Assembly (NCBI GenBank): GCA_007618135.1
Contig: PHFX01000158.1
Location: forward strand, 1 to 48,641
Origin: Candidatus Brocadia sp. WS118
GTDB lineage: Bacteria; Planctomycetota; Brocadiia; Brocadiales; Brocadiaceae
Reading direction: 5' to 3'
DNA: 48,641 bases
Of the stretch, positions 2,086-48,641 are shown in pieces. A model generated the notes under the pieces. That model had not been told where the DNA came from, did no database searches, and saw only the letters and a program-made list of their open reading frames with translations. Both the position numbers and the translations under genes were made by a program. The first letter of the stretch is position 1, and every line of letters begins with the position of its first letter.

Positions 2086-3666
2086 TTAACGCCAGTCACC
2101 GGAAAGGCTGAATGGCGCCCAATAGTATGCATGATTTTTTTCCCCTTCCGGCGGCTTATGCAAAATTTCTAAAACACTTTCCCGCCATGCCTGGGCACGC
2201 GACCGTTTTTTCATTAGCCAGCGATCATAAAAACTTGTTGCGAACTGTCCTGAAATCTGAGCATCAACATTCCAGTGAGATGACAGTAAACTGCCAACAC
2301 CGAGGTACATCAGTGCCCAATCCAATCCAAGCAAATCGTGCCCGACCCCTTCCTTTGAGAGGCCAGAGACACATGCCTGCAATGTTACATGACTGTTATT
2401 TAAATTCGGTTTATTTTCCAGAAGTTTTTCCGGGCTAAGAAGATGTGCGATGTCAACATTCCGCACTTCTCCAGGAACTTCGGGCAGTTCTCCATTTGCA
2501 GCCAGCAGTAAACCGCTCCATTTATATGGATTTTCTTCATAGTTCTGATCAAAAATCCCGTGAGTCGCAAAATGGACAATTTTTTCCTGAAAGTTACTTC
2601 GTAAGAGTTTTTCCATCTCTGCCTTTATTCCGTTGATTGCTTCACCTTCAAGATATTGAGCCAACCATGAAGGGGCTATCGCAAAAGAATCTATTTTCTC
2701 CTTCTCCTCAAGATCAAGTTGAGTGGGCACTTGAAACGCTATATACCGGTTAAGTTTGACTGGCTTCCGGTTGAGTGTTTCCAACAGCAGGTGTGCTCCA
2801 TGGATGCGCGAGACCGAAAAGCGATTAACCAGAGGTTCATCTTTAAAAGTAATATAATGTAGAGGAAACAAATGCAGAATCCCATCCGAACAATAACAGA
2901 TATGGTCATTTTTTTCAAGGAGTCCCTCATCAAAGAGTGGTTCAATCCAGGATACAAGTGGGCGGAGCACTTCAGCCATGTTTCTCAGGGAAGACTTTCT
3001 AAACAGATTTGCCTTTTCAATCCACTGTTCAGGATCAATATAATATATCCATTTTCTTAATTGATTCTCTGAAATGTCAATCCGGCTCTTTGTAAAAGTA
3101 CCCTTTTTACTCACCAAAACTGCGTAAATAACATCTCGATCTACCAAAAAGCTTAGATAATGAATACCCTCTTTATGAACAATACCAGGTAACCTGTCAA
3201 CAACCTGAGCAAAAGATTCAATGGTATGTCCCTCATTTTCTGCTGAAGCTATTGTCTCGATCAAGAAACGACCTTTACCCCTTTCAATGGTTTGAAGAAG
3301 TTCTCTTGGAGTAGCATGATCAAATTGCAGACTTGCCAATATGCGATACATATTTGGAAACTGTCCGTGTAAACCGGCGCGTTGGGCGGGATTTGCAATA
3401 CGGGCCCGGGCTGTATCCAGACTTCGCGAAAGTTCTGAAAGGGTAATCAGTGCTTCGTTGTCTTCCTGCAATTGAAGATGACAATGGATTTTATACCATA
3501 ACACGTTATTATCATGGTCAGGAAATCGATTCTTTGTAAAAGAACGTATTTCTTCCAGTTCAATTAATTTCGCTTTAATCTCGTCAGGCCCGCTTTTTTT
3601 AAGCCGCCCCATAATGAAGGCCATAATTGAAGCCGATCTTTTCCTGATCTGAAATTCACTTATCAT
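2086..3666 (-). CDS. CHAT-domain protease, second copy, partner of the overlapping upstream gene
   Basis: A 526-residue protein. The first 130 residues are helical and end in the pattern (LLQTIERGKGRFLIETIA) that usually links TPRs to the CHAT fold in TPR-CHAT proteins. The CHAT domain covers about 155-526, with His369 in IVHFATHG and Cys432 in VTLQACVSG, then the conserved LSSHWNVDA and YYWAPFSLSGDWR endings. It is a predicted cysteine protease with an intact dyad. It has no signal peptide or membrane helix, so it is probably cytoplasmic. Its ATG lies 11 bp inside the end of the upstream gene, so the two are probably translationally coupled. The architecture suggests a TPR-CHAT enzyme divided over two open reading frames, with the sensor part encoded upstream. 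Confidence 0.92.
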   Translation of the reverse strand: MISEFQIRKRSASIMAFIMGRLKKSGPDEIKAKLIELEEIRSFTKNRFPDHDNNVLWYKIHCHLQLQEDNEALITLSELSRSLDTARARIANPAQRAGLHGQFPNMYRILASLQFDHATPRELLQTIERGKGRFLIETIASAENEGHTIESFAQVVDRLPGIVHKEGIHYLSFLVDRDVIYAVLVSKKGTFTKSRIDISENQLRKWIYYIDPEQWIEKANLFRKSSLRNMAEVLRPLVSWIEPLFDEGLLEKNDHICYCSDGILHLFPLHYITFKDEPLVNRFSVSRIHGAHLLLETLNRKPVKLNRYIAFQVPTQLDLEEKEKIDSFAIAPSWLAQYLEGEAINGIKAEMEKLLRSNFQEKIVHFATHGIFDQNYEENPYKWSGLLLAANGELPEVPGEVRNVDIAHLLSPEKLLENKPNLNNSHVTLQACVSGLSKEGVGHDLLGLDWALMYLGVGSLLSSHWNVDAQISGQFATSFYDRWLMKKRSRAQAWRESVLEILHKPPEGEKNHAYYWAPFSLSGDWR

Positions 3667-4540
3667 ATTTTTCTTTTTTGCGTTTATTATATTCTTCTAT
3701 CTCTTTTTGAACATCAATATTTTCACCTTTCATAAATCTCTCCAGCCGCTCCATCATATAATCCAGATTATCCAAATCTATTGGTCTGTCCTTTTCATCT
3801 TCCAGACGCTTCTGAAGTGCCTCCACAATCCATTTCTCATCATTTCCCAGAAAACCTCCCATTGCTTTGATGCTTTCTGAGAGAGCATCAAAGCGCTTAT
3901 CAAGAGTATCTTTATCTGTCTGCGGCATTCTACCTGGTCCAGCTTTCTGTTCTTTCAGTTTGAATTCCGCATTCTGATAAGCAATTTTATCCGCTATATT
4001 CAGATTATGAACAAAAGTTCGATTCAGTTCTTTATAAACTTCCTCAGCCTGGTCATAATCTTGTTGATTCAAATAAGCTTCCATTCTCTTCAGCAAAAGT
4101 GATGCACATGACTCTTTATCACCCTTTGTGCTTAACCAGGCAATTGCTTCATCTGCAAACTTGTGCAGGGCGTCATAGCTATCTCCCCCAAGCTGAAGCA
4201 GGCAATTGGTATAAGAGGCCGCACTAGTGCCAACATTAGAGAGGATTGTCTGACGGCTTATTTCAGAAATATCCTCCCGTTCACAGGTTTCTTTGGCCAA
4301 TTCATAGCATGCCTGGCTGGTCACCATACCATATACCAAACCTTCACCAATTCCCTGTGAATAAGCTGCTGCCATAGAATTCAACGCCATCACCGGCGCC
4401 TCAACTATGTTCAACCCTACCAGCATCAAAGTCTGCTCCTGTAGTCTGAAGTAGGGCGCTTTTCTGACGAACGCCTGCATCTCCGCTTTATTGCCACTGC
4501 GAAAAATGCGCAGTATTTCATTTTTTTCGGGAATGTTCAT
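3656..4540 (-). CDS. Helical TPR-like protein coupled to the CHAT protease
   Basis: A 294-residue, almost entirely helical protein of no family I recognise. Residues about 100-190 carry two to three degenerate TPR-like hairpins (for example AYLNQQDYDQAEEVYKELNR). The C-terminal 100 residues are highly charged, coiled-coil-like, and end KKEKYDK. An alanine-rich, mildly hydrophobic stretch (about 40-80) is too polar for a confident membrane span. AGGAGG precedes the ATG at good spacing. The stop overlaps the start of the CHAT gene by 11 bp, so the two products are probably made together and may form one complex, with this protein as the regulatory or recognition subunit. That role is inferred from the overlap and from TPR-CHAT fusions in general. 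Confidence 0.8.
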   Translation of the reverse strand: MNIPEKNEILRIFRSGNKAEMQAFVRKAPYFRLQEQTLMLVGLNIVEAPVMALNSMAAAYSQGIGEGLVYGMVTSQACYELAKETCEREDISEISRQTILSNVGTSAASYTNCLLQLGGDSYDALHKFADEAIAWLSTKGDKESCASLLLKRMEAYLNQQDYDQAEEVYKELNRTFVHNLNIADKIAYQNAEFKLKEQKAGPGRMPQTDKDTLDKRFDALSESIKAMGGFLGNDEKWIVEALQKRLEDEKDRPIDLDNLDYMMERLERFMKGENIDVQKEIEEYNKRKKEKYDK

Positions 4541-4600
4541 CGATGGTCCTCCTTTGAATTTGGGTAAATTGAATGGTTCAAATTCTCCTCTTTATATTAT

Positions 4601-4626
4601 AGAGAGAAACCCCTTGGATTCTCTCT
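4601..4626. promoter_or_regulatory. Inverted repeat in the leader of the helical-CHAT pair
   Basis: AGAGAGAA (4601-4608) and TTCTCTCT (4619-4626) are perfect complements with a 10-base spacer, 61 bases upstream of the minus-strand ATG at 4540. On the minus strand a TATAAT hexamer (plus 4596-4601) abuts it, but no convincing -35 box was seen. It may be an operator or a leader hairpin. The rest of the 277 bp gap (4541-4817) shows nothing I can name. Confidence 0.35.
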
Positions 4627-4817
4627 GGTGTTTTACAAAAAGACGTGCGTTAGCAAATGAGATTATAATAAGCTATTCTTTTATTGTTAATAAGCCGAAT
4701 ATTTTTTCAAACCCTCAAATTGATTTTAATGTTCCATCAGCACTTGTCTTTCCTCAAAAAAGTGAACACCAACTTAAGTTGTATTAATTGGATTTAGTTT
4801 TCCAAATTAAACCGGTG

Positions 4818-6335
4818 TCATATATCCAATCGTTGAATGTCTCTTGACTCTATTACCGTATGGTACTGAATCTTCTTCAGCCAATCATAATAAGTCAGCT
4901 TTACGCTATTGCGCATTAATTCTAATAAACAAAATCCATGATTCCCCAAATCCGGTCTTAAGCCGGTGGCCTTCGGAAATTTGAAACTGAGATCCACCCA
5001 TTCTGCTGTAGGAATGTTCGCATTTTTTCGCACAATGCGCTGGTGCTTGTCGGTATTCTCTTCAACATCATGTTTGTATATTGGGTGGCCGCCATGACCA
5101 ATGCAACTGCCAATAAATGGCGCTTTACCGCTGGGTTTAAATAAAGCGCAATAATGGGTATTGCCCCAGAACCAAACATCAATTAGTTTTTCTCGGACAA
5201 ATTCTTCCAGATCATAATACAGGCCGCTGAATTCATCCTTCCCCAGTTCATAGGGTTCGTTCGGGCTTAACAGAATATTGATGCGTTTGGGATTCGCTTC
5301 CTTGCCTTCCCGTAATCTTTTACCAAGCCAGCTATTTAACGCTTGCTCGGGGTGCCGCCCGTCTTTGTGGTAGGCAGTATCGATGCCAATAATTTGGTAT
5401 TTCTCGCTGCGGATGCAAAAGTAACTACCCTCCTGTTCCTGTTCGACCCAGCCCGTTCTCCGGTTTCGTTTTTGAAAGATATAATTAAAATAAGGAAATG
5501 CCCCGGAAAACATCTCGTGATTGGCATTCATGGTAAATACCCGCGCTTTATTTAAGACAGGCGCCAATGGTTCCTCAAAATGATACCTGAATTCCGAGAA
5601 TCTGCCGGCGTAATAAACATCCCCCAAATGAATAACATAATCCGGATCCAGGCTGGCGATATTCCTGGCAATATATCTCGAGTGATATAGACCGGTACCA
5701 AAATCGGCAAGAAGCGCTATGGTGATTTTATCATCCACACCGGCGATCTCATCTTGCTGGTTTTTCATAGTATAAATAAAATTACCGGGAAATTCACTGT
5801 GTAGCGGGAAATCCGCTTTTAAGTGTTTGGGATTTACTTTGTCGCGCAGAATGTAATAGATAGAATTGAAAAACCAACCGAGTGCATCAGCTACTGGCTC
5901 AAATTTATGGCTGTTGGGTTCGATGGGAATATCCGGGTATAAAATCAACTCATCCGGAATTGTTGAGGCGCTGCGGGTTACTTCTCCCCGGGTTACGCGA
6001 GTATCAGGTTCCGCTAAATCCTTGCTGCGTTTGGCTCGAATTTCTTCTACAAATCTACCGGGTGAATCAAAGGCTCGTCTGGCTTCGCTAAGGGTCTGTT
6101 GAATTTGATCGTCAGTTAAAGGGTAACTGAAATTCCGCTTTATCTGGGACAGGATTTCTTCCGGTTTGTCTTTTAAAAGTGTTTCAATTACTTTCAAGCC
6201 GGATTCATCTAAGGGCTGAAGCTCGGTTTGTGGAAATTGTTCCGGTTCCGTATCACCCCGGGTCACTTCTTCTGACGCTTCGACAATGCCGGTGTAGCCC
6301 AGTTCTTTATATAATGCTTTTAATTCTTCATTCAT
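4818..6335 (-). CDS. Calcineurin-like metallophosphoesterase with atypical metal ligands
   Basis: I chose the ATG at 6335 (505 residues) because GAGGGG lies 6 bases before it. The in-frame ATG at 6353 lacks any ribosome binding site. Residues 1-130 are a polar, Thr/Arg/Glu-rich, probably flexible region. The phosphoesterase core spans about 205-505. Its motifs are ADFGTG (Asp211), GDVYYAG (Asp239), MNANHE (Asn272-His273), ILLSPNEP, and WGNTHYCALF (391-400). Classical enzymes have DxH, GNH(D/E), a lone His and GHxH. Here DxG, ANHE, Ser and GNTH replace them, so metal binding is altered or uses other residues (for example the later GHGGHP). It hydrolyses a phosphoester if active, and the substrate is unknown. 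It lies between two CHAT protease units. Confidence 0.85.
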   Translation of the reverse strand: MNEELKALYKELGYTGIVEASEEVTRGDTEPEQFPQTELQPLDESGLKVIETLLKDKPEEILSQIKRNFSYPLTDDQIQQTLSEARRAFDSPGRFVEEIRAKRSKDLAEPDTRVTRGEVTRSASTIPDELILYPDIPIEPNSHKFEPVADALGWFFNSIYYILRDKVNPKHLKADFPLHSEFPGNFIYTMKNQQDEIAGVDDKITIALLADFGTGLYHSRYIARNIASLDPDYVIHLGDVYYAGRFSEFRYHFEEPLAPVLNKARVFTMNANHEMFSGAFPYFNYIFQKRNRRTGWVEQEQEGSYFCIRSEKYQIIGIDTAYHKDGRHPEQALNSWLGKRLREGKEANPKRINILLSPNEPYELGKDEFSGLYYDLEEFVREKLIDVWFWGNTHYCALFKPSGKAPFIGSCIGHGGHPIYKHDVEENTDKHQRIVRKNANIPTAEWVDLSFKFPKATGLRPDLGNHGFCLLELMRNSVKLTYYDWLKKIQYHTVIESRDIQRLDI

Positions 6336-6441
6336 TTTGTTCCCCTCTTTCATTTAAAATTTCTGTTATTTTTGGCTAACTTTGATGCTCTTGAATTTTG
6401 AACCCTTTTATAAACAATAGGGTTTGAATCGTTAAAAAATT

Positions 6442-9400
6442 TCATTTTATTCTCTCCGTCTCATTCACTGTTCGAGTTTTAGCGCGCTTGCGAATGAGAA
6501 AGAATAAGAGTATGCTTCCCGGGATTATTATGATGATAAATAAAATGATATATAGGGTTGAATTGTGTATTGAATTGAACGAACCCCCCGGATCACCATA
6601 AAGAATAAAGGGAGCCCAATAGAATGGATGCTGATAATATATGGAAGCACCTTCTGTATTTCGCTTCCCAATGAGATTCCGCTTGGCCCGGGCGAGCGCT
6701 TCTGCCTTGGTTAGTTTCTGATTCAGAAGATAATCATAGAAATTTGGCATCAGCTCGGAAGCGAATTTATCATCCACTTTCCATAATGTCATGATCACTG
6801 ATTTTGCACCTGCGCCAATAAAAAGACGCGGCAGCGCCAGAACGCCCTCTCCCACAACGAACTTCCCACGGCCGGTTTCACAGGCGCTTAAGGTTACCAA
6901 ATCGCAATTAAAGGGAAGATCTAATATTTCGTAACCCATAAAGAGACCATCATCCGTTGAATCGGGTCCAAGTGCCAATGCCAGGCCTGAAAACGAATCA
7001 AATGTTGAATCCACAAAACCATGAGTGGCAAAATGGATAATTTGATGGCGGGGGATTTCCTTGATCAAGGCAGATTTCGTCGCCTGGTCACGTTTCCGGA
7101 TATCGGTATTGGCATGAACTCGTTTAATCTGCTCTGCTTCCCATTCAGCAAAGAATAGCGGTGTAAAACGCCAACTGTATCGCTGCTGAGCCCTGGTCTG
7201 ATTGAGTACTAAATCTTCTGCTTTATAGTAAAACGGATTTGCAACTACCATCACATTGGGGTTGTCAGTTACCGGAGAGGCTTCTTTTGCAAGCAGTAAA
7301 GATGTGCTCGGGCTATAAGTGAAGGTATAGCGATGTAGCAAAAACCAGTCAGCGTAAGTCGGTAAATCCCCCGGTGTATATTCGGCAGAGTCCGGTTTGC
7401 TCGTAAGCAACATTTCAAAAGGCAAATTTGTTAATGATAAATCCGGAACTACAAAAAGTTGCCGTGGAAGATGAAACCTCTCTTCTACCGGTTTGATCAA
7501 TGCCTGATAAAGGCGAAACGCCGTTTCCGCTTTAAAAGGGATTTTCTGGATTAACCCCGCTTCGGCATTATGAAAAGGTTTCATGAGGGATTCAATTGCA
7601 GATTCAAGTGAATCAGGATTTAGGTTGAGTTGCACAATTTCCACCTTATTTTCAGCCGCAGCCAGAACAAAGGAGACTTCTTCGGAGATATGGTATAGTA
7701 ACAACCCCAAATGTGATTTTTCCAGATTTTTAAGTATGGTTGATAAGTTAGAAAAAGCGGGAGGTTTTGTTATTTCAGGAGAGTGTTTGTCAGGCAGTGA
7801 ATTTAACTGTTGCGCCAGCATGGAGAGACGAACTAATTCGAGTTCGTTTTTTAGAGATTCTATTTCCCGGGCGGGGCGAAATTGATCTAATTTTAAACGG
7901 ATGCTTCGCTGCAATAATCGCAATCGATTGCGTGCTTGCAGGTATTCATGAGTGTAGTGAGTAACACCTCGATTACTCAATAAGTCTTGCAGCGCCCGGC
8001 TCCGCCCCATTTCGTGATAATAGAATACACTATCCAAATCAGATGGATTATCTTGTTTCCAATAGCGCTGCAAATAACAATACACCAGGCTCTCATATAC
8101 GGCATATCCGTCAACAAAATAACCGATTCGTAACTGATCGACATTTAATTCACTGCGAGTATCTTCAATGATCTTTACTGCCTGACGATAGGCAGAAATA
8201 GCTGCTTCCAGTTTTCCGGCTTTTTTGTAGGCATTCCCATATCCTTCATAAATTTCCCACAGCATTTCTGTGATACCCTCTTCCGAGGCTATTTTTAAAG
8301 CGGCTTCATATTTAGTAAATGCAGTATCGATATTTCCCAAATGCAATTCCGCATCTCCAATGTGGAGCAAATACCAACCCTCAAAAGCAGTTGCTTCGGC
8401 TTCTTGAGCGGCTTTAAACGCTTTCTGAAATTCTACCCTTGCCTGTTCATACTTTTTCTCTACAAGATAAATGTTAGCAACTCGTCCAATCCACAAATAG
8501 ACATCTTTACGATATGCAGGATTTTTACTCAATATATCAATATACTCTTCGAATAGCTCTCTTGCTTCAACGTAGTTTCCTTCTAACATAAGAACTTGCC
8601 CGAGTTTAGCCCGGGCAGATTCCTGATGATTCCTTAATTTGTTTATTACGGTTATATTCAATACTTCTTTTAAGGTTGCTTTTGCCAACAGTAGTTGTTT
8701 AAGGGTAATATATAATTCTGCTTTATCTAGCAGGGTTCTCACCAAAAGTTCAGTGTTTTTTGAGCGGCGAGCCAATGCTTCACTGCTATCAATAGTGGCT
8801 AAGGCTGATGTATATCTACCCAAATAGTACAGGGTCATCGCATATCCCCGGTACCAATCCCACAAAAATCGGTAATTTTGGAGTTTTGAGCAGATATTTA
8901 TTGCTTCCTCAAAGTATTTTACCGCTTCCTGGTAATTCCCCTGGTCTCGGTATAAAAAGCCCCGATAACCGGAGAGTATTTGCAGGCGATAATAATCATT
9001 GATCCGAGCGGCAATTACGTAGGCCGAGTCATAATAGGCTAACGCCAAATGGTAATCTTTTGCTACCTGTTTTGCAAGCAGTCCAAGATTGGATAAAAAA
9101 CGGGTCTTGGCTCTCAAGTTTCCTTGTTGGCTGGCTATCCGGTATCCAAGACGCCATATCGAATCAGCTTTTATGGGCCTTGAGCTATAAAAATAACAAT
9201 ATCCCCAGATATCGAGAACCACCGGATGATGAGTGATTTTATCAGGAGATTTTGAGAAAATTTCAATTGCTTTTTCATCTTTCTGCCGGAAATAGTAATA
9301 AAATGCGGAGGCAATTTCTCGAATTTCCTGCGCCAGCGATAATTTCTGGATGATCGCTTCTCCGTTAAATTTACCGACCTGATCGTTATCGAGATTGATA

Positions 9401-9843
9401 AATTCCTTCAGCAACAGCAGTGAAGGTGGACCGGTTTTCAAAGCCTGAACATAAGCCTTGAATGCAGATGAAGAATCGCCTTTCAGTTGATATGCTTTTG
9501 CGATCATCCAAAAAGCATGTTGCCGATATTCCGGTTCAGCACTCAATTGCTGAAAATAGCCCTGCGCTTTATCGATTTGTCCATTATAGACATACCAATC
9601 CAATAGCGTCAAGTACACTTCCTCAAAGCTCGGATGGTTAAGTAAAAATCGCTGTAGTGTGTCAAATCGCTGATCTAAAGAAACCGCTTGCAGAGAGTCC
9701 AGAAGCGCATAATAAGATCGATATATTCTTTCTTCACCTGCAGACGATGCCTGAATTGTGCAGAAAAGAAGAAGATCGAATAGTAATGTTAAGGCACGAG
9801 TTGTAAATACGTTTTTTACTGTAAAATTTTTACCATTCTCCAT
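6442..9843 (-). CDS. Exported, membrane-anchored TPR-CHAT protease
   Basis: A 1133-residue protein. A basic N-terminus and hydrophobic core (about 16-35, ending near ASSA-GEE) form a probable signal peptide. Residues about 40-600 are TPR-type helical repeats (for example KYFEEAINICSKLQNY, AISAYRQAVKIIEDTRSELN). The CHAT domain covers about 720-1085, with His941 in IIHFATHG and Cys988 in VTLSACETG, followed by IMTLWKVDD and FYWAPFILYGDPG. A transmembrane helix at about 1097-1118 is followed by RKRAK, so the protease faces outside the cytoplasmic membrane and a short tail faces in. It starts 20 bp after a tiny membrane protein gene, downstream of a sigma/anti-sigma set. The obvious inference is an envelope-sensing caspase-like protease. 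The substrate is unknown. Confidence 0.92.
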   Translation of the reverse strand: MENGKNFTVKNVFTTRALTLLFDLLLFCTIQASSAGEERIYRSYYALLDSLQAVSLDQRFDTLQRFLLNHPSFEEVYLTLLDWYVYNGQIDKAQGYFQQLSAEPEYRQHAFWMIAKAYQLKGDSSSAFKAYVQALKTGPPSLLLLKEFINLDNDQVGKFNGEAIIQKLSLAQEIREIASAFYYYFRQKDEKAIEIFSKSPDKITHHPVVLDIWGYCYFYSSRPIKADSIWRLGYRIASQQGNLRAKTRFLSNLGLLAKQVAKDYHLALAYYDSAYVIAARINDYYRLQILSGYRGFLYRDQGNYQEAVKYFEEAINICSKLQNYRFLWDWYRGYAMTLYYLGRYTSALATIDSSEALARRSKNTELLVRTLLDKAELYITLKQLLLAKATLKEVLNITVINKLRNHQESARAKLGQVLMLEGNYVEARELFEEYIDILSKNPAYRKDVYLWIGRVANIYLVEKKYEQARVEFQKAFKAAQEAEATAFEGWYLLHIGDAELHLGNIDTAFTKYEAALKIASEEGITEMLWEIYEGYGNAYKKAGKLEAAISAYRQAVKIIEDTRSELNVDQLRIGYFVDGYAVYESLVYCYLQRYWKQDNPSDLDSVFYYHEMGRSRALQDLLSNRGVTHYTHEYLQARNRLRLLQRSIRLKLDQFRPAREIESLKNELELVRLSMLAQQLNSLPDKHSPEITKPPAFSNLSTILKNLEKSHLGLLLYHISEEVSFVLAAAENKVEIVQLNLNPDSLESAIESLMKPFHNAEAGLIQKIPFKAETAFRLYQALIKPVEERFHLPRQLFVVPDLSLTNLPFEMLLTSKPDSAEYTPGDLPTYADWFLLHRYTFTYSPSTSLLLAKEASPVTDNPNVMVVANPFYYKAEDLVLNQTRAQQRYSWRFTPLFFAEWEAEQIKRVHANTDIRKRDQATKSALIKEIPRHQIIHFATHGFVDSTFDSFSGLALALGPDSTDDGLFMGYEILDLPFNCDLVTLSACETGRGKFVVGEGVLALPRLFIGAGAKSVIMTLWKVDDKFASELMPNFYDYLLNQKLTKAEALARAKRNLIGKRNTEGASIYYQHPFYWAPFILYGDPGGSFNSIHNSTLYIILFIIIIIPGSILLFFLIRKRAKTRTVNETERIK

Positions 9844-30376: not shown

Positions 30377-32974
30377 ATGGATATTTATCCCTCTGGAACT
30401 ATAATTTCCAGCCGCTACGAAGTAGTGCAAGGCCCCTATGAGAAACCCAGTTTGGCTGGGGGAATGGGGCTGGTTTACCTCTGCGTGGATCACGGGGAAG
30501 GCGGCCGCCCAGTGGCCTTGAAAACCTTCCGCCCGGAGTATCTTCCCAACCGGGAGGCTCGCGACCGCTTCTTAAGGGAAGGTACTACCTGGGTGCAGTT
30601 GGGCAACCATCCCCATATCGTCAGATGCTATCAAGTTATCAAAAGTGCTGTCGGATCGGAAGTCTTTTTCGTTCTCGAACTCGTTGCTGCTGCCGAAGGC
30701 AAACGCGACGCCTCGTTAAGGGCCTGGCTTACTCCCGGCAAACCCCTGCCGGTGGAGCAGGCATTGCTATTTGCCCTGCACCTCGCCCGGGGCATGAAAT
30801 ACGCCACCACAAAAATACCTGGCCTGGTTCACCGTGATCTGAAGCCGGAGAATGTGTTGGTAGGGCGGGATGGATTGGCGCGAATTACCGACTTCGGTTT
30901 GGCAACCGCGGTGCAGGAAACAGTTGACCAGCTACCAGTGGCTGGTGCTATAGAAAGCAAGGAGAGCCAGTTGAGAAGAACCCAGTTGACCCGGGGTATA
31001 GCAGGGACGCCGCTCTACATGGCCTCGGAACAATGGGCCGGCGCAGAACTGGATGCGCGCAGCGATATCTATGCTTATGGGTGTATGCTTTATGAAATGC
31101 TCACCGGGAAGTTCGCCGTGCCCGGTAAAACACTTGATGAGATAGAAAAAGCCCATCGGAAAGGTCAGGTGGGTAAAATACCTTCAACTTTACCCCATCA
31201 TCTGACCCAACTGCTGCAGCGATGTGTAAAGGTGAACCGGGAAGAACGCTATAGCAATTGGTTGGAATTGGAATCCGAAGTTGTCAGTGTTTACAAAACC
31301 GTTATGGATAAAGAGGCACCGGCCAACGCGGGTAGCTCGCCAGACCAGGCTGGCGAGTCGGCGGTGGGTTGGTCATACAATGCTATAGGGCTATCTTACC
31401 ATGATATTGGCAAGTTTGCAGTAGCGCAGTCTTATTTTGAAAAAGTGCTGGTTATTTCTCGCTCAATGCAGGATCGTTCTCTGGAAGCTGCAGCTCTGGG
31501 CAATTTGGGCACTTCCTATCGTCAGTTGGGTGATTCTCTGCAAGCAATCGAGTTCCATAAAAAACATTTGACCATTGCCCGAGGGATGAATGACCTTCAT
31601 GGAGAAGGAGTTGCACTGGGCAACTTAGGCATTGCCTATCATCAGTTGGGTAACCCTCAACAAGCTATTGAGTTCTTTGAAAAAGATTTGCTAATTGCTC
31701 GCAAAATCGGCGACCGCTCGGGGGAAGGTGCAGTTTTCGGCAATTTAGGAAATGTCTATTTAGATTTGGGTGAACCACTTAACGCCATTAAATACCATGA
31801 AAAGAGCCTGGTAATTTCCCAGGAGACTCGAGATCGCCAGAGGGAAGGCCAGGCGCTGGGTAACCTTGGAAATGCTTACCATCAATTAGGCAATCCTCGC
31901 CAGGCGATTGAGTCTTATGAAAAAAGTTTACTGATTGCCCAGGAGATAAGTGACCGCTATGGGGAAGGGAAAGCACTGGGCAGCATGGGCAATTCTTACC
32001 TTCGGCTAGGCGATCTCCGAAGAGCAATAGAGATGTATGAAGGACAATTAGCAATTGTTCAGGAGATTGGGGACCGCCATGGAGAGAGCCAGGTGATGGG
32101 TAACTTGGGTAATGTCTATTTCCAGATGAGTGATTATCAACAGGCGATATTGTTCTATGAAAAAGGATTGGCACTCTCTCACGAGATTGGAAACCGCGAT
32201 GGGGAAGGAAAAGCATTGGGTAATTTGGGCAATGCATATCGCCAGTTAGGTGATCCCCGCCGGGCGATTGAGTTCCATAAGAAACATCTGGCAATTGCGA
32301 GTGAGATTGGCGATCGCCGCAGTGAAGCAGCCGCGCTGGGGAATTTGGGTGTTGCTTATCGACAGTTGAATGATCCCCATCAGGCAATTAAGTATTACGA
32401 AAAAAGCTTGGATATCCTCCGCAAAATCGGAGATCGCCAGGGAGAGGGCCAAACCCTGGGTAACCTGGGCAATGTCTATGCTAACCTGAGCGACCCCCGT
32501 CGAGCGATCGAATTTCATGAAAAGTATTTGGCCATTGTACGCGAAATTGGTGATCAGCAAGGAGAGGGCGCAGCGTTGGGCAACCTCGGCAATGCGTACC
32601 GCCAGTTGGGTGATCCTCACCAGGCAATTGAGCTCTATAAAAAAAGTTTGGTGATTGCTCAAAAGATTGGCGACCGGCAAAGAGAAGCGAATGCGCTGGG
32701 CAACCTCGGTAATGCTTATGGTGATATAGGGCAAACGGATCAGGCAGTTGTATTCTATAAAAAAAGTTTGACAATGATGCACGAGATTGGCGACCTTGTC
32801 GGTACAGCATTCACAAGTTTTAATTTAGCGTTACAGCTACTAAAACAAACTCGCCTAAAGGATGCCCTTGACCATACCGAATATGCTAAACAGGTATTCT
32901 TAAAAATCGGCTATAACGAGTATGCGGCAAATGCACAGAATTTGATTGATCAGATTCAATCAAATTCATCATAG
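30377..32974 (+). CDS. Ser/Thr protein kinase with TPR array, K9 (longest, ASE variant)
   Basis: 865 residues starting MDIYPSGTIISSRYEVV. VALK, HRDLKPEN and DFGLA are intact, but the APE motif reads ASE (MASEQW; Ser codon TCG at 31025-31027), a single C-to-T change from the K3 sequence. The Glu that anchors the activation segment remains. The kinase half and first TPR are near-identical to K3, but thirteen TPR units follow against seven in K3. Helix A here often reads LGDPxQAIEFHKKHL, a flavour not seen in K3. Last kinase of the array. A relic of another kinase lies 30-106 bp beyond its stop codon. Probably active. Confidence 0.94.
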   Translation: MDIYPSGTIISSRYEVVQGPYEKPSLAGGMGLVYLCVDHGEGGRPVALKTFRPEYLPNREARDRFLREGTTWVQLGNHPHIVRCYQVIKSAVGSEVFFVLELVAAAEGKRDASLRAWLTPGKPLPVEQALLFALHLARGMKYATTKIPGLVHRDLKPENVLVGRDGLARITDFGLATAVQETVDQLPVAGAIESKESQLRRTQLTRGIAGTPLYMASEQWAGAELDARSDIYAYGCMLYEMLTGKFAVPGKTLDEIEKAHRKGQVGKIPSTLPHHLTQLLQRCVKVNREERYSNWLELESEVVSVYKTVMDKEAPANAGSSPDQAGESAVGWSYNAIGLSYHDIGKFAVAQSYFEKVLVISRSMQDRSLEAAALGNLGTSYRQLGDSLQAIEFHKKHLTIARGMNDLHGEGVALGNLGIAYHQLGNPQQAIEFFEKDLLIARKIGDRSGEGAVFGNLGNVYLDLGEPLNAIKYHEKSLVISQETRDRQREGQALGNLGNAYHQLGNPRQAIESYEKSLLIAQEISDRYGEGKALGSMGNSYLRLGDLRRAIEMYEGQLAIVQEIGDRHGESQVMGNLGNVYFQMSDYQQAILFYEKGLALSHEIGNRDGEGKALGNLGNAYRQLGDPRRAIEFHKKHLAIASEIGDRRSEAAALGNLGVAYRQLNDPHQAIKYYEKSLDILRKIGDRQGEGQTLGNLGNVYANLSDPRRAIEFHEKYLAIVREIGDQQGEGAALGNLGNAYRQLGDPHQAIELYKKSLVIAQKIGDRQREANALGNLGNAYGDIGQTDQAVVFYKKSLTMMHEIGDLVGTAFTSFNLALQLLKQTRLKDALDHTEYAKQVFLKIGYNEYAANAQNLIDQIQSNSS
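31336..31357. repeat. Inverted repeat in the kinase-TPR linker of K9
   Basis: CTCGCCAG (31336-31343) and CTGGCGAG (31350-31357) with a 6-base loop, the same hairpin as in K3. It is retained with the surrounding near-identical linker DNA. Confidence 0.7.
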
Positions 32975-33003
32975 ATTCACTAAACAAAAGAGAGAGGTGA
33001 TCT

Positions 33004-33080
33004 ATGAACATCTGATCTTTCAGGTATTGCAACCAATTGCTGCATCCTAAGGCAAGCGTTATACTTCCTTACGAGTCTGT
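33004..33080 (+). pseudogene. Relic of a tenth kinase gene
   Basis: GAGAGGTG is followed by ATG AAC ATC T at 33004, which resembles a kinase-gene start (compare MNIY of K5), but a TGA follows at 33013. From 33015 to 33080 the DNA aligns without gaps to K6 at 23855-23920, 44 of 66 positions by hand count. Read in the kinase frame it gives IFQVLQPIAAS, a stop, then GKRYTSL, against IFLVLQLIVADEGKRDASL in K6. So the start of a kinase gene seems fused by deletion to its hinge region, then cut off. It lies between K9 and the radical SAM gene. Confidence 0.7.
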
Positions 33081-33111
33081 CGTGCCACTTGAAAAAATTG
33101 GAGAGTTAATT

Positions 33112-33753
33112 TTGAGATATCGTGAATCTTCATTGGCTAATAAATTACGCATTTATATGACTATTCCTGTAACTCATACGTTAGGGCCTTATGCGCGCTT
33201 TGCAATTTGGGTTCAGGGTTGCCCGTTTCGCTGCCCCGGTTGTATGACTCCGGATTCTCTTCCGATGACAGGAGGAGAGGAAATTGACATAGAAGTATTG
33301 GCCAAAGCGATCTTGAACGAATCAAAAATAGAAGGAATAACTATTAGTGGAGGAGAACCTTTTCTACAAACGCCAGGCTTAGTTCAATTGATCGATCTGA
33401 TTAAAGCAAATAGAGATATTGGAGTAATTGTATATAGCGGTTACCAATTGAAAAAATTGCGTTCCATGGCAACTGAAGAGGCGGGAGAAAGCATCAAAAA
33501 ATTCTTAAAAAGAATTGATATATTAATTGATGGTTTATATATTAAATCACTTAATGATGGTCTTAGTTTACGCGGCTCTTCCAATCAAAAAGTTCATCGA
33601 TTGACTAATAGATACTCAGAGATTTTCGAGTATTATTATGGAAGAATGGAGCGCCAGGTAGAGATTCATATTCATCGAGATGAAATGAAAATTGTCGGAA
33701 TTCCTGGCCAAGAAATGCTTCAACAGTGGCAGTCAAAATTTTCTAAACCATAA
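33112..33753 (+). CDS. Radical SAM activase, NrdG/PflA-like
   Basis: The core motif is WVQGCPFRCPGC, a CX3CX2C cluster site for 4Fe-4S and S-adenosylmethionine, followed by TISGGEPFLQ and a short (beta-alpha) barrel typical of anaerobic activating enzymes. The frame is open from TTG 33037, but its first 15 codons overlap the kinase relic, so I prefer TTG 33112, which has GGAGAG 6 bases upstream and gives 213 residues. The first Met (in RIYMTIP) would cut into the conserved LRIY start. Such short activases usually install a glycyl radical or modify a partner, but no glycyl-radical enzyme is present here. It heads the TIR/GTPase block. The substrate is unknown. Confidence 0.85.
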   Translation: MRYRESSLANKLRIYMTIPVTHTLGPYARFAIWVQGCPFRCPGCMTPDSLPMTGGEEIDIEVLAKAILNESKIEGITISGGEPFLQTPGLVQLIDLIKANRDIGVIVYSGYQLKKLRSMATEEAGESIKKFLKRIDILIDGLYIKSLNDGLSLRGSSNQKVHRLTNRYSEIFEYYYGRMERQVEIHIHRDEMKIVGIPGQEMLQQWQSKFSKP

Positions 33754-35213: not shown

Positions 35214-38180
35214 ATGAAGCAGGAACAGAGGGAGACCGTGCCTCTTATTCCAAAAGGGATGGAACTCCGGGGCATATTACAAGGGTACGAAGAGGCTATT
35301 TGCCAGATTGCCTGGTCGCCAGATGGAAAGATGATAGCTTCTCCATCTCTTGACGGGACTATTCGAGTGTGGGATGCTGAGAGCGGAAAAGAATCTATGG
35401 TGCTTACAGGACATCAAGGTGCTGTCTATAGTGCCGCATGGTCGCCAAATGGTCAGAGGCTCGCCTCGGGTTCCGAAGATAAAACTCTGCGGATTTGGGA
35501 TGTTAAAACTGGGGAAACAATTTTCGTACTGGATGAGCATAAGGGGCCGGTTTATAGTGTGGCATGGTCGCCGAAGGGGCAAGGTTTGGCTTCAGGTTCC
35601 GCAGATAAAACGATTAAGCTATGGAAAATCAATAAACGCACAAAGCAACAAATCTGCGAGTACATAGGGCACTCCAATGCAATATATTGTCTGGCCTGGT
35701 CTCCGGACGGAGCTCTGCTTGCTTCAGGGGCGGAAGAGCCAGACAATATGTTGCGTCTGTGGGATGTCAAGACAAGTGATGTGCCTCGGATCTTAAATGG
35801 GCATACTTGTGGGATCTTCAGCGTTGTCTGGTCGCCCGATGGAAGGGTACTTGCATCAGGAGGTGGAGAAACCGATCAGCGGATAATGGTTTGGAAGAGA
35901 GATTCCGAGTTGCCGGAAAACATTCTTGAGGGTCATACCGGCAAAATCTGGAGTCTTTCATTCTCTGCGGACGGGCGCTTATTAGCATCCAAATCTCATG
36001 ACAGCACGGTACGGTTGTGGCGTACCGACACTTGGCAGGAGGCCGCCAGACTTCAAGAACCCAGTTCATTAACTGACTTGGCGTTTAATCCTGTTTTACC
36101 GGTTTTAGCCACGCCGGGAGAATATGATCAAAATATCCACATTTGGGATCTAAAGTACGATCTTATACTAAATAGTTCAGAACTCGCCGAGCCCGTCTAT
36201 TATCAGAATGCCAAGGTTATAATGATTGGGGATACTGAGAGTTTGCAGTCGCTGTTGACAGCAGAAAACATGGTGAAACCGGTGGATAAACTCCATATTT
36301 GGTCTTTTGAGATGAAAGAAGAATATTCTAAAGATTCACCGCAAGAGATTCGAGAAATTTTGTTTCGGGAACTGAGTGGCGACCCCAATTACCAATTGGA
36401 TCATCGCATGGAGTTAAATGGAGCGGCATTGATCTTAATGGTTCTCAAGACTCCTGTGGAAAAGAACCAATTTGATGGAATACAACTATGGATTCGTACT
36501 ATCGCGCAAGCCCAAAATCGTCAGAGTAATCTCACAAAGGTATTGAAAAAGTTTCTCATCGTTATCAAAAAAACTACTGATAGAAATTCTACCAGCGACG
36601 AATACATCCGAAAAACTAAAGAAAAGATGAGATTTGATGGCTTTTTTGAGATTGATCCCGAGAAAACTGAAAGGCTGAAGAAACTTAGTAACGCAATTTG
36701 TGAAAGTATCGCTTGGAATGCGCTTCCCAGGACTACTTCAACAAAAATTTTTCAGCAAATTCAGGAATTTGTTCTAAATGAAAAAAAAGATGGACGTCTG
36801 CTTAGCACCACAGAAGATTTATTTCGCATATTTTGCAAAACCTATCCGGACATTCAGGATAATGAACTGAAAAGTAAATTTGATACTTCCATATTTTATT
36901 TGCAGAACCACGATCTGGTACGCTTTCTTTATGAGAAACACTTCATTCTGTTTCAGCCGGAAGTGTTTCGAGGATACGCTTCTTCAATTATCAACGCTGC
37001 CGCGCAGGATCCGGAAAAAATGGGTTCTATCGCCGAAGAAAAAACTTTAAATGGCATATTTAGTATTCCGGAAAAACTAAAAATTTCCAATAAAAGTATA
37101 GAAAAACTCATACTTTACCCTGTCATAGAAGAACTGTTATTTCACGAATTAGTTTTCAAAGAACCTACCGGCGACGGAGCTTATTTTGTCTTTCCCTCCC
37201 AGTTTGGCCGTGATTTAGAAAAGAAAGCGTTGATCATAAAAGGTAGATCAACAATATTTCGGTTCAGAGGAGCATTACAGAATATCTATACAACGCTTGT
37301 TGTGCGTCTCGCTAATACCAAACTGTTTTTAACCGAACGAACAGATATGGGGCAAAATGCTGTAATATACAATGACAGGGATGGCGGTGCCTGTGGTATT
37401 CATTTGCAGAAAAAGAAGTGGGAAGGGGAACTAACGCTTTTTTATGCGAAAGATACTTCCCCGGTGACCCGTTTCCTTTTTGAGGAGTTTATTTTTCGTC
37501 ACTTGAAACGCCATGGTGTTAGTAAAATTAAACGCCTGTTTGTTTGCCAACATTGTGGTAGTACTATCCAAAAGGATTGGGCTGAAGGCCGTCTGAGCCG
37601 CGGTTATGATCAGATCGAATGTGGAAAATGTGGAGAATCTGTTTCACTCTCATTGCCAAAAGAACAACTCAAAAAAATGCTAATTCAAATTGCAAGAATG
37701 GATGAGTATGCTGATAAAGCAAGGGAATATGAATCTTTAGAAGAAACCTTACGACGCAAGGAGGAAAATAAGGAATTCGATGTTTTCTTTAGCTATAATC
37801 ATAAAGATCAAGCAGCGGTAATAAAAATCGGAAAGGAGTTAAAGAAATGGGGTATCCTACCCTGGATTGATCTATGGTATATTTTGCCTGGTCAATCATG
37901 GCAAAAAGAAATTGAGAAACAGATCAAGAATAGTAAGGTTGTGGTAGTATTCATAGGGCCAAACGGTTTGGGTCGCTGGCAAGACAAAGAATACATGGCC
38001 TTTATGCGCAAATCCGTTGAGTGCGGCGGTAGAGTGATTCCGGTTATGCTTCCTGATTTTTCTAAAAAACCCGAATTGCCCTCTTCTTTTCTGGAAGAAT
38101 TTGAGTGGGTGGATTTTCGAAAAATCGAAGTTGAATATGATCCCCTTAAACAATTAATTCGCGGAATTGAAGGAAAGTAA
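35214..38180 (+). CDS. WD40 propeller - Zn ribbon - TIR effector protein
   Basis: 988 residues. Seven WD40 blades at about 12-320 (GHQGAVYSAAWSPNGQRLAS and six similar) make one complete beta-propeller. Residues 320-775 are a large mostly helical region of unknown type. A zinc ribbon follows at 778-806 (CQHC ... CGKC). The TIR domain is at 855-988: FDVFFSYNHKD, WIDLWYILPGQSWQ, and WQDKE, whose Glu926 aligns with the catalytic Glu of NAD+-cleaving TIRs such as SARM1. Likely role: sensor and scaffold (propeller) controlling NAD+ depletion or signal production by TIR. It starts 12 bp after the coiled-coil gene. It is the clearest candidate toxic effector of the plus-strand block. Confidence 0.92.
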   Translation: MKQEQRETVPLIPKGMELRGILQGYEEAICQIAWSPDGKMIASPSLDGTIRVWDAESGKESMVLTGHQGAVYSAAWSPNGQRLASGSEDKTLRIWDVKTGETIFVLDEHKGPVYSVAWSPKGQGLASGSADKTIKLWKINKRTKQQICEYIGHSNAIYCLAWSPDGALLASGAEEPDNMLRLWDVKTSDVPRILNGHTCGIFSVVWSPDGRVLASGGGETDQRIMVWKRDSELPENILEGHTGKIWSLSFSADGRLLASKSHDSTVRLWRTDTWQEAARLQEPSSLTDLAFNPVLPVLATPGEYDQNIHIWDLKYDLILNSSELAEPVYYQNAKVIMIGDTESLQSLLTAENMVKPVDKLHIWSFEMKEEYSKDSPQEIREILFRELSGDPNYQLDHRMELNGAALILMVLKTPVEKNQFDGIQLWIRTIAQAQNRQSNLTKVLKKFLIVIKKTTDRNSTSDEYIRKTKEKMRFDGFFEIDPEKTERLKKLSNAICESIAWNALPRTTSTKIFQQIQEFVLNEKKDGRLLSTTEDLFRIFCKTYPDIQDNELKSKFDTSIFYLQNHDLVRFLYEKHFILFQPEVFRGYASSIINAAAQDPEKMGSIAEEKTLNGIFSIPEKLKISNKSIEKLILYPVIEELLFHELVFKEPTGDGAYFVFPSQFGRDLEKKALIIKGRSTIFRFRGALQNIYTTLVVRLANTKLFLTERTDMGQNAVIYNDRDGGACGIHLQKKKWEGELTLFYAKDTSPVTRFLFEEFIFRHLKRHGVSKIKRLFVCQHCGSTIQKDWAEGRLSRGYDQIECGKCGESVSLSLPKEQLKKMLIQIARMDEYADKAREYESLEETLRRKEENKEFDVFFSYNHKDQAAVIKIGKELKKWGILPWIDLWYILPGQSWQKEIEKQIKNSKVVVVFIGPNGLGRWQDKEYMAFMRKSVECGGRVIPVMLPDFSKKPELPSSFLEEFEWVDFRKIEVEYDPLKQLIRGIEGK

Positions 38181-45596: not shown

Positions 45597-46850
45597 ATGA
45601 AGGAATTAACTTGCTTATACTGTTTTGAGACATTCTCGCCGTCAGAAGTGGTATTCCGTTGTATGAATCCGGATAGTAAAGCCTGCGCACCAGAACAGGA
45701 TGAAATGCTCGGAAAGTACCAGCGAAAAATTGGTGACTCACCTATTCTGCCCAGAGTTGTTGAACCGTCTAAAAATTTGCCAACTAAACCTAATAAGGGA
45801 TGGGATAAAATCAAGGGCACGCTTTCTTCAAACAGAAGCCAAATGCTGGCGTTTGCAATTTGCCAGTGTGGATTTAAGACCAGCAAGCGGCTTTGCCCGC
45901 ACTGCCACAATGAGCTACCCAGGCAGTTTGGAGAAACCGACAGTCATACCATTGCGCTGCTAGGCACTATAGAATCCGGTAAGAGCCATTATATAACCGT
46001 GCTTATCCATGAATTAAAAAAACACGTTGCGGCTGATTTCAACGCAGCATTCAGTGAAATGGATGACCAAACCATTAAACGATATAAGGAAGATTTTCAT
46101 AAAAGACTCTATATAAACCGAGTTGTTATTAAAAAAACTGCCTCTGCAAGGACTGATATTTCTGTACGTTATCCATTAATCTATCGTCTTAGTATAGAGA
46201 AAAAAAAACAAATTCAGGCAAGTTCGATGGTCTTTTTTGATACCGCAGGCGACGATTTAGAAGAAATGGATAAAATGGAGACTGAAACAAAATATATAGC
46301 CCGGGCGCAAGGGCTTATATTCCTCATTGACCCGTTGCAGATTCCTCAACTTCGTGACCGGGTTCGCGATAGGAATGTTCTAATACCTCGGGAAATAATT
46401 GATCCGGGCCATATCGTAACCCGGCTCGCCAACCTGGTTCGGGATAGCAGCGGGATAGCTCATGATGCAAAGATTGATACTCCAATAGCTTTTGCTTTTT
46501 CCAAGATCGATGCGGTATTACCGTTTATGCAGCCAGATACCCCAGTGAAATGGGATTCCAACCATGGGGGCTTTTTTGATTTGGAAGATTTTGAACAGGT
46601 GAATGAGAGCATGCATGACCATTTGGCGAACTGGATTGGCCGCGGATTCGAAATGTTTTTAAGGCATAACTTTACCAATTATGCCTTCTTTGGGGTATCG
46701 GCATTGGGATCCGCGCCGGATGAGAGCGGGCAAATCCGCAAAGGGATTGCTCCTCACCGGGTAGTAGATCCCTTTCTCTGGGTACTTTACAAGTTAGGTA
46801 AAATAAAAGGATCAAAGGGTTCTCAAGCGCCTTTGAGCTTTGAAATATAA
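45597..46850 (+). CDS. Zinc-finger P-loop GTPase of the GAP1-associated type
   Basis: 417 residues. The N-terminal 115 residues carry paired zinc fingers (CLYCFETF ... RC; CQCGFKTSKRLCPHCHNELP). The P-loop is at about 121-130 (GTIESGKSH, G1). VFFDTAGDDLE near 218 is the G3/Walker B region, and FAFSKID near 300 is an NKxD-like (SKID) specificity element. It therefore resembles a TRAFAC-type GTPase. GAGGAGAGG precedes the ATG. The gene is 18 bp upstream of the GAP1-N2 gene, the arrangement known from GTPase-centred conflict systems, where the GTPase acts as a switch. The lack of a canonical NKxD Asn makes base specificity less certain. Confidence 0.88.
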   Translation: MKELTCLYCFETFSPSEVVFRCMNPDSKACAPEQDEMLGKYQRKIGDSPILPRVVEPSKNLPTKPNKGWDKIKGTLSSNRSQMLAFAICQCGFKTSKRLCPHCHNELPRQFGETDSHTIALLGTIESGKSHYITVLIHELKKHVAADFNAAFSEMDDQTIKRYKEDFHKRLYINRVVIKKTASARTDISVRYPLIYRLSIEKKKQIQASSMVFFDTAGDDLEEMDKMETETKYIARAQGLIFLIDPLQIPQLRDRVRDRNVLIPREIIDPGHIVTRLANLVRDSSGIAHDAKIDTPIAFAFSKIDAVLPFMQPDTPVKWDSNHGGFFDLEDFEQVNESMHDHLANWIGRGFEMFLRHNFTNYAFFGVSALGSAPDESGQIRKGIAPHRVVDPFLWVLYKLGKIKGSKGSQAPLSFEI

Positions 46851-46851
46851 T

Positions 46852-46871
46852 CATAGAAAAAAAATTCTATG
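46852..46871 (+). promoter_or_regulatory. Hairpin hiding the start codon of the GAP1-like gene
   Basis: CATAGAA (46852-46858) and TTCTATG (46865-46871) are perfect complements around an A6 loop. The last three bases of the right arm are the ATG of the next gene, and no Shine-Dalgarno sequence is visible. The GTPase stop codon is only one base before the stem, so ribosomes finishing the GTPase would open it. Confidence 0.55.
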
Positions 46872-48641
46872 CCGCAATTTTATCAGGTTTATTATACATC
46901 ATGCGTAACCGGTTTGAGCGGTTCAAGCGGGTTTCAGTTTAACGCGGCTTCCCCGGAGCTTGAACCGCACCTGCTCCGGTTGATCGAGCGGTTTTGCGTT
47001 TATGTTCCTCCTGCCTCCGCGCCGCCACAACCTTCACCAGCAGAGATTGAAAATTTGCCGGTTTCCCTATTCTATTCCCCATTACAGGAAGGCGGAGGGG
47101 TGATCGCTCAAGCCAAATATTTGGGCAAGGACTATTCAAATCGCTATGGCAATTATTTTGTGCATGCCCTGGTTGCCAAAGAATCCGATTTACTTATTGA
47201 GAATTTCCCGCCCATATCATTCTGGCGTTTTTCGCACTGGAAAACCCAGGAACAAAGTTCTACCGAATTACCGGCAATCGAAGTCGGAGAATTAAAGGGG
47301 GGAATTCAGATCCTTGAGGTAGCGCAGTTTCTTAAGGATGGTGATCGCCTAAAACATTTGCCAGCTTTGCTAACCGCAGTGGAGGACTCGTTTCGTACCA
47401 AACGTCCACTCATTATTGTGGACGATAACAAGTCGATTGCATTATGGATTGCTGCCATCTTTTATGCCTTTCCCCTACACATTGCGTTGCGTCTATCTTT
47501 TAACACTTACGTTAAAAACCCCTATCAGGCTGATTTTAAAATTATCGGCACTACTCCTGACTCAGACTTTCGTTTTTCCCAGAATGAAATGGAATACCAG
47601 TTTTATGTTTTCGATTTTAAAGGCAATCGATTTAGTTCGATCCAAAATGTCTCTGGATTTGCTGAGAAAATAACCTACCTGTATAAGCAGAAAAATTTAG
47701 AGGAAATTATCGAATTTAATTCTCCTGGCAAATATATTGATCCTGCGTTGCCCATAGAAGATTTAGACTCTGCGCTCTCATATTACGCCTTGAATCGAAA
47801 TTTAGATGTTCCGGGTATTCATGATCGGGGAGCTCTGGCCTTGTACACTAAGCGCCTCTCTACAACTGATCCAGGATCAATTGATCCCATATTTTTGAAT
47901 GAACTTTTTAATTTGGTAATCCAGAAGCATGCTCCTGATTTAACCTTGCTGGAAGTATGCACGGAGTTTTTCCGCACGGCAATGCAAGTGGAAACTATAA
48001 GAAACCGGCCAGGAATTTGGTCTGCTATTGAAAGATCCTATCTTACCTGGCTTCTCGATAAGGCCTTCCGGGTAATTTCACTCGAACAGCTTAGCAAAAC
48101 CCTCGCTAACCTTGAATTTTCCGATAGCGCAATTCGATCCACAAGCCAGCTAAAGGGAATCTGGATAGAACGCTTTGAGCATATTCAAAGCAAAGATCCG
48201 ACAAATTTGTTGGATTTAATCCATTTCGGAGAAAAATTTGGTTTCCTATCCGAGAAGGAAAAAGGGTTAGAAAAAATAGGGAAAGATATAATAGCTCCAA
48301 ATTTAAACAATTTGCGCATTCAAAAAATGCTATTTCAACTCGCGTCCGAACCGGTTGGCAAGAATATTATTGCTGGCATTTGCGAAAGTCTTACCGAAAA
48401 CCTGGAATTACCTGAAACTCAGGATCGTCTAGAATTATTAGTTTCCAACCAGGATATTTTTCCGGAATTAAGAAGAATTGCACTGGAGAAAAACTACTTG
48501 AAGCTTTATTATCAAATTATACAAATTGATCTTGTGGAGAGCCGAGAACAACCGTTCGATGCATTCAAAAAATATATGGAAGATATGTATAATTTAAAAC
48601 AGTCCGGGCACAGTTTAAGCTTAGAATTAGTTGATTCAATT
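46869..48641 (+). CDS. GTPase-associated protein 1 (GAP1-N2 type), N-terminal part
   Basis: The frame stays open for 591 codons to the window edge, so the gene is truncated here. The opening (QFYQVYYTSCVTGLSGSSGF, then AASPELEPHLL) is characteristic of GAP1-N2 proteins. It continues with SLFYSPLQEGGGVIAQAKYLG, NRYGNYFVHALV and FWRFSHWKTQE, typical of that domain. A P-loop-less alpha/beta segment (RPLIIVDDNKSIALWIAAIF, then ALRLSFNTYVKNPYQADFKIIG) follows, then a helical middle region as in GAP1-M. These proteins partner with the preceding zinc-finger GTPase in conflict systems, though their biochemical activity is not settled. The start codon lies in a hairpin with no ribosome binding site, suggesting coupling to the GTPase. 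Confidence 0.9.
   Translation, partial: MPQFYQVYYTSCVTGLSGSSGFQFNAASPELEPHLLRLIERFCVYVPPASAPPQPSPAEIENLPVSLFYSPLQEGGGVIAQAKYLGKDYSNRYGNYFVHALVAKESDLLIENFPPISFWRFSHWKTQEQSSTELPAIEVGELKGGIQILEVAQFLKDGDRLKHLPALLTAVEDSFRTKRPLIIVDDNKSIALWIAAIFYAFPLHIALRLSFNTYVKNPYQADFKIIGTTPDSDFRFSQNEMEYQFYVFDFKGNRFSSIQNVSGFAEKITYLYKQKNLEEIIEFNSPGKYIDPALPIEDLDSALSYYALNRNLDVPGIHDRGALALYTKRLSTTDPGSIDPIFLNELFNLVIQKHAPDLTLLEVCTEFFRTAMQVETIRNRPGIWSAIERSYLTWLLDKAFRVISLEQLSKTLANLEFSDSAIRSTSQLKGIWIERFEHIQSKDPTNLLDLIHFGEKFGFLSEKEKGLEKIGKDIIAPNLNNLRIQKMLFQLASEPVGKNIIAGICESLTENLELPETQDRLELLVSNQDIFPELRRIALEKNYLKLYYQIIQIDLVESREQPFDAFKKYMEDMYNLKQSGHSLSLELVDSI

Follow-up and report, generated by a model that had tools for sequence, protein, structure and literature searches.

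A kinase relic between a kinase-TPR array and a radical SAM gene in "Candidatus Brocadia" sp. WS118

The window, by which we mean the whole 48,641-nucleotide stretch of "Candidatus Brocadia" sp. WS118 DNA that was analyzed, carries nine related kinase-TPR genes (K1 to K9), and behind the last of these a radical SAM gene belonging to a functionally different cassette. At the joint lie 66 bases that resemble a part of the kinase genes. Are they what is left of a tenth member of the array, and where does the adjoining radical SAM gene begin?

Kinase homology of the 66-base scrap

Positions 33015 to 33080 (plus strand) align without gaps to the hinge region of K6, from position 23855 on, with 44 matches of 66, which is exactly the alignment of the original prediction. 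The gapless scores against the rest of the array are 43 (K8), 42 (K3), 41 (K7 and K9), 40 (K2), 39 (K1), 38 (K5), and 29 (K4), and all nine matches are in codon register. By comparison, dinucleotide shuffles of the scrap (n = 500) gave a mean of 31.2 with a standard deviation of 1.2 and a maximum of 37, and the best of 5,106 window 66-mers taken off the array as a control (step 11, both strands) scored 39. An nhmmer DNA profile was built from 12 kinases, the nine of the window and three of contig C284, and was run against the window, all of C284, and 20 kb of the 24.5 kb of contig C252. Its sole significant match outside the 12 intact kinase genes was 33016 to 33079 (E of 1.4e-5), no further kinase scrap being significant in these targets; the target file also held a duplicate stretch, in which the relic site appeared at an E of 1e-5. 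The homology of the scrap to the K1-K9 family is above chance. In a whole-genome BLASTn search with 699 bases of K8, only matches with an E of 0.13 or worse were found beyond the 12 genes and their pieces, in a search that did not list the relic itself and that equally decayed scraps elsewhere could escape.

In the hinge frame, the scrap reads IFQVLQPIAAS*GKRYTSLRVC, the K6 counterpart being IFLVLQLIVADEGKRDASLRSW. As had been noticed from the sequence before, the kinase register is kept and is interrupted by a stop, a single TAA at 33048 to 33050 (plus strand); the reading frame is further disrupted in that the ATG at 33004, discussed below, is out of the hinge frame.

The scrap also carries a subgroup signal. 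Four alignment columns separate K6, K7, K8, and C2 from the other eight kinases; the relic has the base of the former group at three of them and disagrees with it at the fourth (33050). Because K9, the neighbor of the relic, belongs to the group of eight, the relic is not a scrap of K9. Its mismatches with K8 are distributed over codon positions 1, 2, and 3 as 7, 3, and 13 (P = 0.019). This third-position lean reaches a P value below 0.05, uncorrected, in 4 of the 12 kinase comparisons and is not significant against the two closest kinases (K6, P = 0.079; C2, P = 0.163). Relic changes that are seen in no kinase, the stop included, fall mostly at positions 1 and 2 (3, 3, and 1). Taken as a pattern, the mismatches would fit a kinase-coding past followed by release from constraint, a lean rather than a proof in so small a sample, and the third-position lean suggests a coding lineage of the relic's own.

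The upstream joint and the origin of the relic

K9 (30377 to 32974, plus strand; Pkinase and TPR matches, 12-kinase profile) is the last intact kinase-TPR gene of the array. Its stop is followed after 29 nt by the ATG at 33004, the gaps within the array being 32 to 74 nt. In front of this ATG is a very strong Shine-Dalgarno sequence (32995 to 33003, plus strand), whose duplex free energy of -19.6, calculated with the standard anti-Shine-Dalgarno sequence, is stronger than that of any other of the 19 starts scored (among random 20-mers, 1% reach -12.7). The codons ATG AAC ATC TGA (33004 to 33015, plus strand) probably represent the beginning of the lost kinase gene, with a stop as codon 4. From the A of the start codon to the hinge there are 285 bases in each of the 12 kinases and 11 bases from ATG 33004. 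A kinase-like start of this form, ATG AAC ATC T, had been proposed originally, and it is present at 33004 to 33013, at a fitting distance from K9 and behind a strong Shine-Dalgarno sequence; its frame, however, is not that of the hinge and stops at once (MNI*). The start pattern is weak evidence by itself, since ATG NNN AT[CT] T is shared by 32 of the 878 plus-strand ATGs of the window, most real kinase starts and ATG 33004 among them, and by eye the leader of ATG 33004 has no visible likeness to the kinase leaders. Considered on its own, the segment from 32990 to 33015 is a nearly perfect Shine-Dalgarno sequence before a four-codon frame (MNI and a stop) that is in phase with the radical SAM gene. 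Searches of the leader for a promoter and a terminator found none.

The scrap is probably what remains of a separate, once functional tenth kinase of the K6/K7/K8/C2 subgroup that suffered two deletions and point decay. According to this history, K9 and the radical SAM gene would once have been separated by a tenth kinase-TPR gene of that subgroup. One illegitimate deletion would have joined its start region to the hinge, with a loss of 274 bp if ATG 33004 was the start, and would have shifted the frame so that a TGA at the joint closes codon 4. Another would have removed what lay between the hinge and the radical SAM gene, namely the rest of the kinase and the TPR part. Point mutations, the TAA included, would have followed, leaving a scrap without a product beside a radical SAM gene that probably starts at about 33112, with a ribosome-binding site of its own. 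As the scrap is short and its flanks hold no further kinase sequence, it is by inference that the donor is taken to be a complete gene at exactly this site, and the same holds for the succession of the events and for ATG 33004 as its start. The original view of an array that once reached further and lost a member by internal deletion thus stands insofar as a further kinase is the best explanation of the relic, with the amendment that a single deletion does not suffice and that at least two, together with point decay, are needed.

The scrap might instead never have been a gene here but filler DNA, a short copy of part of an existing kinase that was inserted where the DNA had broken or been rearranged. 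We regard this as unlikely. In its favor, the match is limited to 66 bases between two unrelated flanks, and third-position mismatches are not significantly concentrated in the comparisons with K6 and C2, the closest kinases. However, a recent copy should differ very little from its donor, whereas the relic is as distant from every intact kinase (29 to 44 of 66 matches) as many of these are from one another (36 to 60 of 66); furthermore, the third-position lean implies a coding lineage, and a kinase-like start with a strong Shine-Dalgarno sequence lies at the expected distance. More doubtful still is the idea that the leader (Shine-Dalgarno sequence, MNI*, and scrap) has been retained as an element that loads or couples translation for the radical SAM gene. 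Its Shine-Dalgarno sequence is indeed the strongest of those scored, and ATG 33004 shares the radical SAM frame with one TGA in between, but about 97 nt lie between this TGA and the radical SAM start, which is far for coupling; the RNA fold of the leader is not unusual (z = +1.86; equaled or surpassed by 194 of 200 shuffles), no Rfam family matched it, and no relative was found that could show conservation.

With the tenth kinase as the preferred origin, the event is ordinary gene decay in a tandem array. Like truncated pseudogenes in other tandem paralogue arrays, the relic is a short decayed piece with frame loss and a stop that lies beside intact paralogues at array spacing. In kind it is no different from such gene remnants; what sets it apart is its very small size and its place where the array meets a functionally different cassette.

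The start of the radical SAM gene

Downstream of the scrap, positions 33081 to 33135 have no detectable kinase similarity above shuffles. A candidate second relic block at 33081 to 33114, which by eye and with one base skipped resembles the ATEKIPGLVHR stretch, was rejected, because its local alignment was not above shuffles: with the segment chosen in three ways, 32, 8, and 47 of 60 shuffles did at least as well as the best score. In the spacer from 33081 to 33111 (plus strand), GGAGAG is at a good distance from TTG 33112 (dG of -6.7) and probably serves the radical SAM gene as ribosome-binding site. The radical SAM frame is open from 33016 (245 codons), and the original prediction considered TTG 33037 as its apparent start. 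This codon has no Shine-Dalgarno signal (dG of -3.9, versus a random median of -3.8). The gene (33112 to 33753, plus strand) most likely starts at TTG 33112 or, alternatively, at TTG 33133.

Homologues of the radical SAM protein (n = 29, at an E of 1e-12 or better) agree with such a start. The first cluster cysteine is 36 codons past TTG 33112 and 29 past TTG 33133, and candidate starts in most homologues are found about 25 to 36 codons before this cysteine (the motif could be placed in 28 of the 29). An in-frame stop is present within 61 codons before it in 18 of the 29, the count for homologue L039 being taken from the match start. The peptide encoded by 33037 to 33111, whose frame on the relic is shifted by one base from that of the kinase, resembles none of the 29 homologues better than shuffles do (best upstream score, 24; shuffle mean, 24.9); its conservation there had been named as the observation that would contradict a relic. 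The lack of a Shine-Dalgarno sequence, the lack of a counterpart in the homologues, and the wrong frame together indicate that the N terminus from TTG 33037 is leftover DNA. It had been described as leftover kinase DNA, which is demonstrable for 33037 to 33080 alone. A reading of 33037 to 33111 as a true N-terminal extension, with a kinase match due to chance, can practically be dismissed: the open frame would permit it, but the kinase match is significant by both shuffles and nhmmer, and the absent Shine-Dalgarno signal, the homologue peptide scores, and the in-frame stops all oppose it.

The radical SAM protein has Fer4_12 and Radical_SAM matches. It is like the anaerobic ribonucleotide reductase activase NrdG in its CX3CX2C radical SAM core and in that nearly the whole TIGR02491 model is aligned; by this curated model, however, it is not NrdG, as it scores 92.5 bits against a cut-off of 126.1. 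The cluster cysteines C69, C73, and C76 are invariant in 25 aligned sequences, all preselected for the motif. The alignment used 24 of the 29 homologues (L045, L047, L048, and L051 were left out, and L039 was lost when the motif pattern failed) and its rows began no more than 36 codons ahead of the first cysteine, for which reason only the start survey and the peptide comparison bear on the far N terminus.

Of the 21 stretches with radical SAM homologues that were scanned, that of C252 included, one has a kinase-like frame no more than 3 kb upstream (a generic kinase, E of 1.4e-10, at locus L119 of genome G117), and a second has one about 9 kb away. Thus, there is no general linkage of kinases and radical SAM genes. 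The former locus (contig C89, 4997 to 13456), a distant one in the same phylum, has the order vWA, FHA, kinase, unknown, radical SAM, unknown, and AAA_2-type ATPase.

The array, the cassette, and the meaning of the relic

To the right of the relic are genes for coiled-coil, WD40-TIR, multi-AAA, HSP70-type, DO-GTPase2, and GAP1-N2/GAP1-M proteins. The DO-GTPase2 gene (45597 to 46850; E of 1.4e-8, above the cut-off) adjoins the gene for the GAP1 protein with an N2-type N-terminal domain (46869 to 48641, running off the contig; GAP1-N2 E of 1.4e-37 and GAP1-M E of 1.5e-18). No FNIII-repeat protein was seen among the window genes scanned, which are a part of the genes on a contig that ends inside the GAP1 gene. 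The WD40-repeat protein of the cassette (35214 to 38180) ends in a TIR domain, and upstream of the array, on the minus strand at 2086 to 9843, there are two CHAT-domain genes and a calcineurin-like phosphoesterase gene. A second radical SAM/coiled-coil/AAA/GAP1-N2/DO-GTPase2 set exists in the same genome (contig C252, 3330 to 15950, locus L116); the two radical SAM proteins are about 41% identical, and the AAA protein of this set is extended by NB-ARC and TPR matches. There, the GAP1-N2 gene is beside the radical SAM gene, with no kinase.

The gene content of the cassette and the second set place the locus with the GAP1-N2-type DO-GTPase conflict systems (Kaur et al. 2020, PMC7159879), with which it has in common the DO-GTPase2, GAP1-N2/GAP1-M, HSP70-type, and AAA ATPase components found right of the relic. 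In that source, Chloroflexi are among the groups named for the GAP1-N2 type, HSP70 themes are assigned mainly to actinobacteria and firmicutes, and radical SAM proteins are tied to another subsystem, the FtsH ternary one; a kinase-TPR array, a feature of the present locus, was not met with in its passages on the GAP1-N2 type.

The kinase family has 12 intact members, three of which are in a row on contig C284 (3281 to 9938, locus L117) without the radical SAM cassette. Between 12819 and 32974, the nearest paralogue shifts from one 90-base block of the kinase domain to another; for example, K6 and K8 are 94% identical in one block and 62% in the preceding one, which suggests, as judged from sequence comparison, that gene conversion has occurred among the array members. 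At an E of 1e-45, searches of 75 genomes of the class and of 59 relatives, two overlapping sets that each include the genome itself, found the family in none of the 74 and 58 others. In the genome_contigs set, the kinases found were 40% identical or less, and scanning this set with the radical SAM protein gave no match.

Tentatively, the kinase-TPR row may be a turning-over receptor repertoire plugged into the DO-GTPase/GAP1-N2 conflict cassette, with members that are duplicated, shuffled by gene conversion, and deleted, in a manner that can be likened to birth-and-death immune families. The changing nearest paralogue along the kinase domain, the three members on another contig, and the class relatives without the family lend some support to this possibility. 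If it is true, the relic would be the fossil trace of a single deletion where the row joins the conserved cassette.

For annotation, the relic gives the radical SAM gene a corrected start, and gene-calling programs should avoid taking the scrap as the beginning of the radical SAM protein. It marks the border between the kinase array and the DO-GTPase/GAP1-N2 cassette, and it indicates that the array has lost at least one member, which implies that not every member is indispensable. In this sense the relic is an ordinary sign of the gain and loss of members of the row and a hint of turnover in the array.
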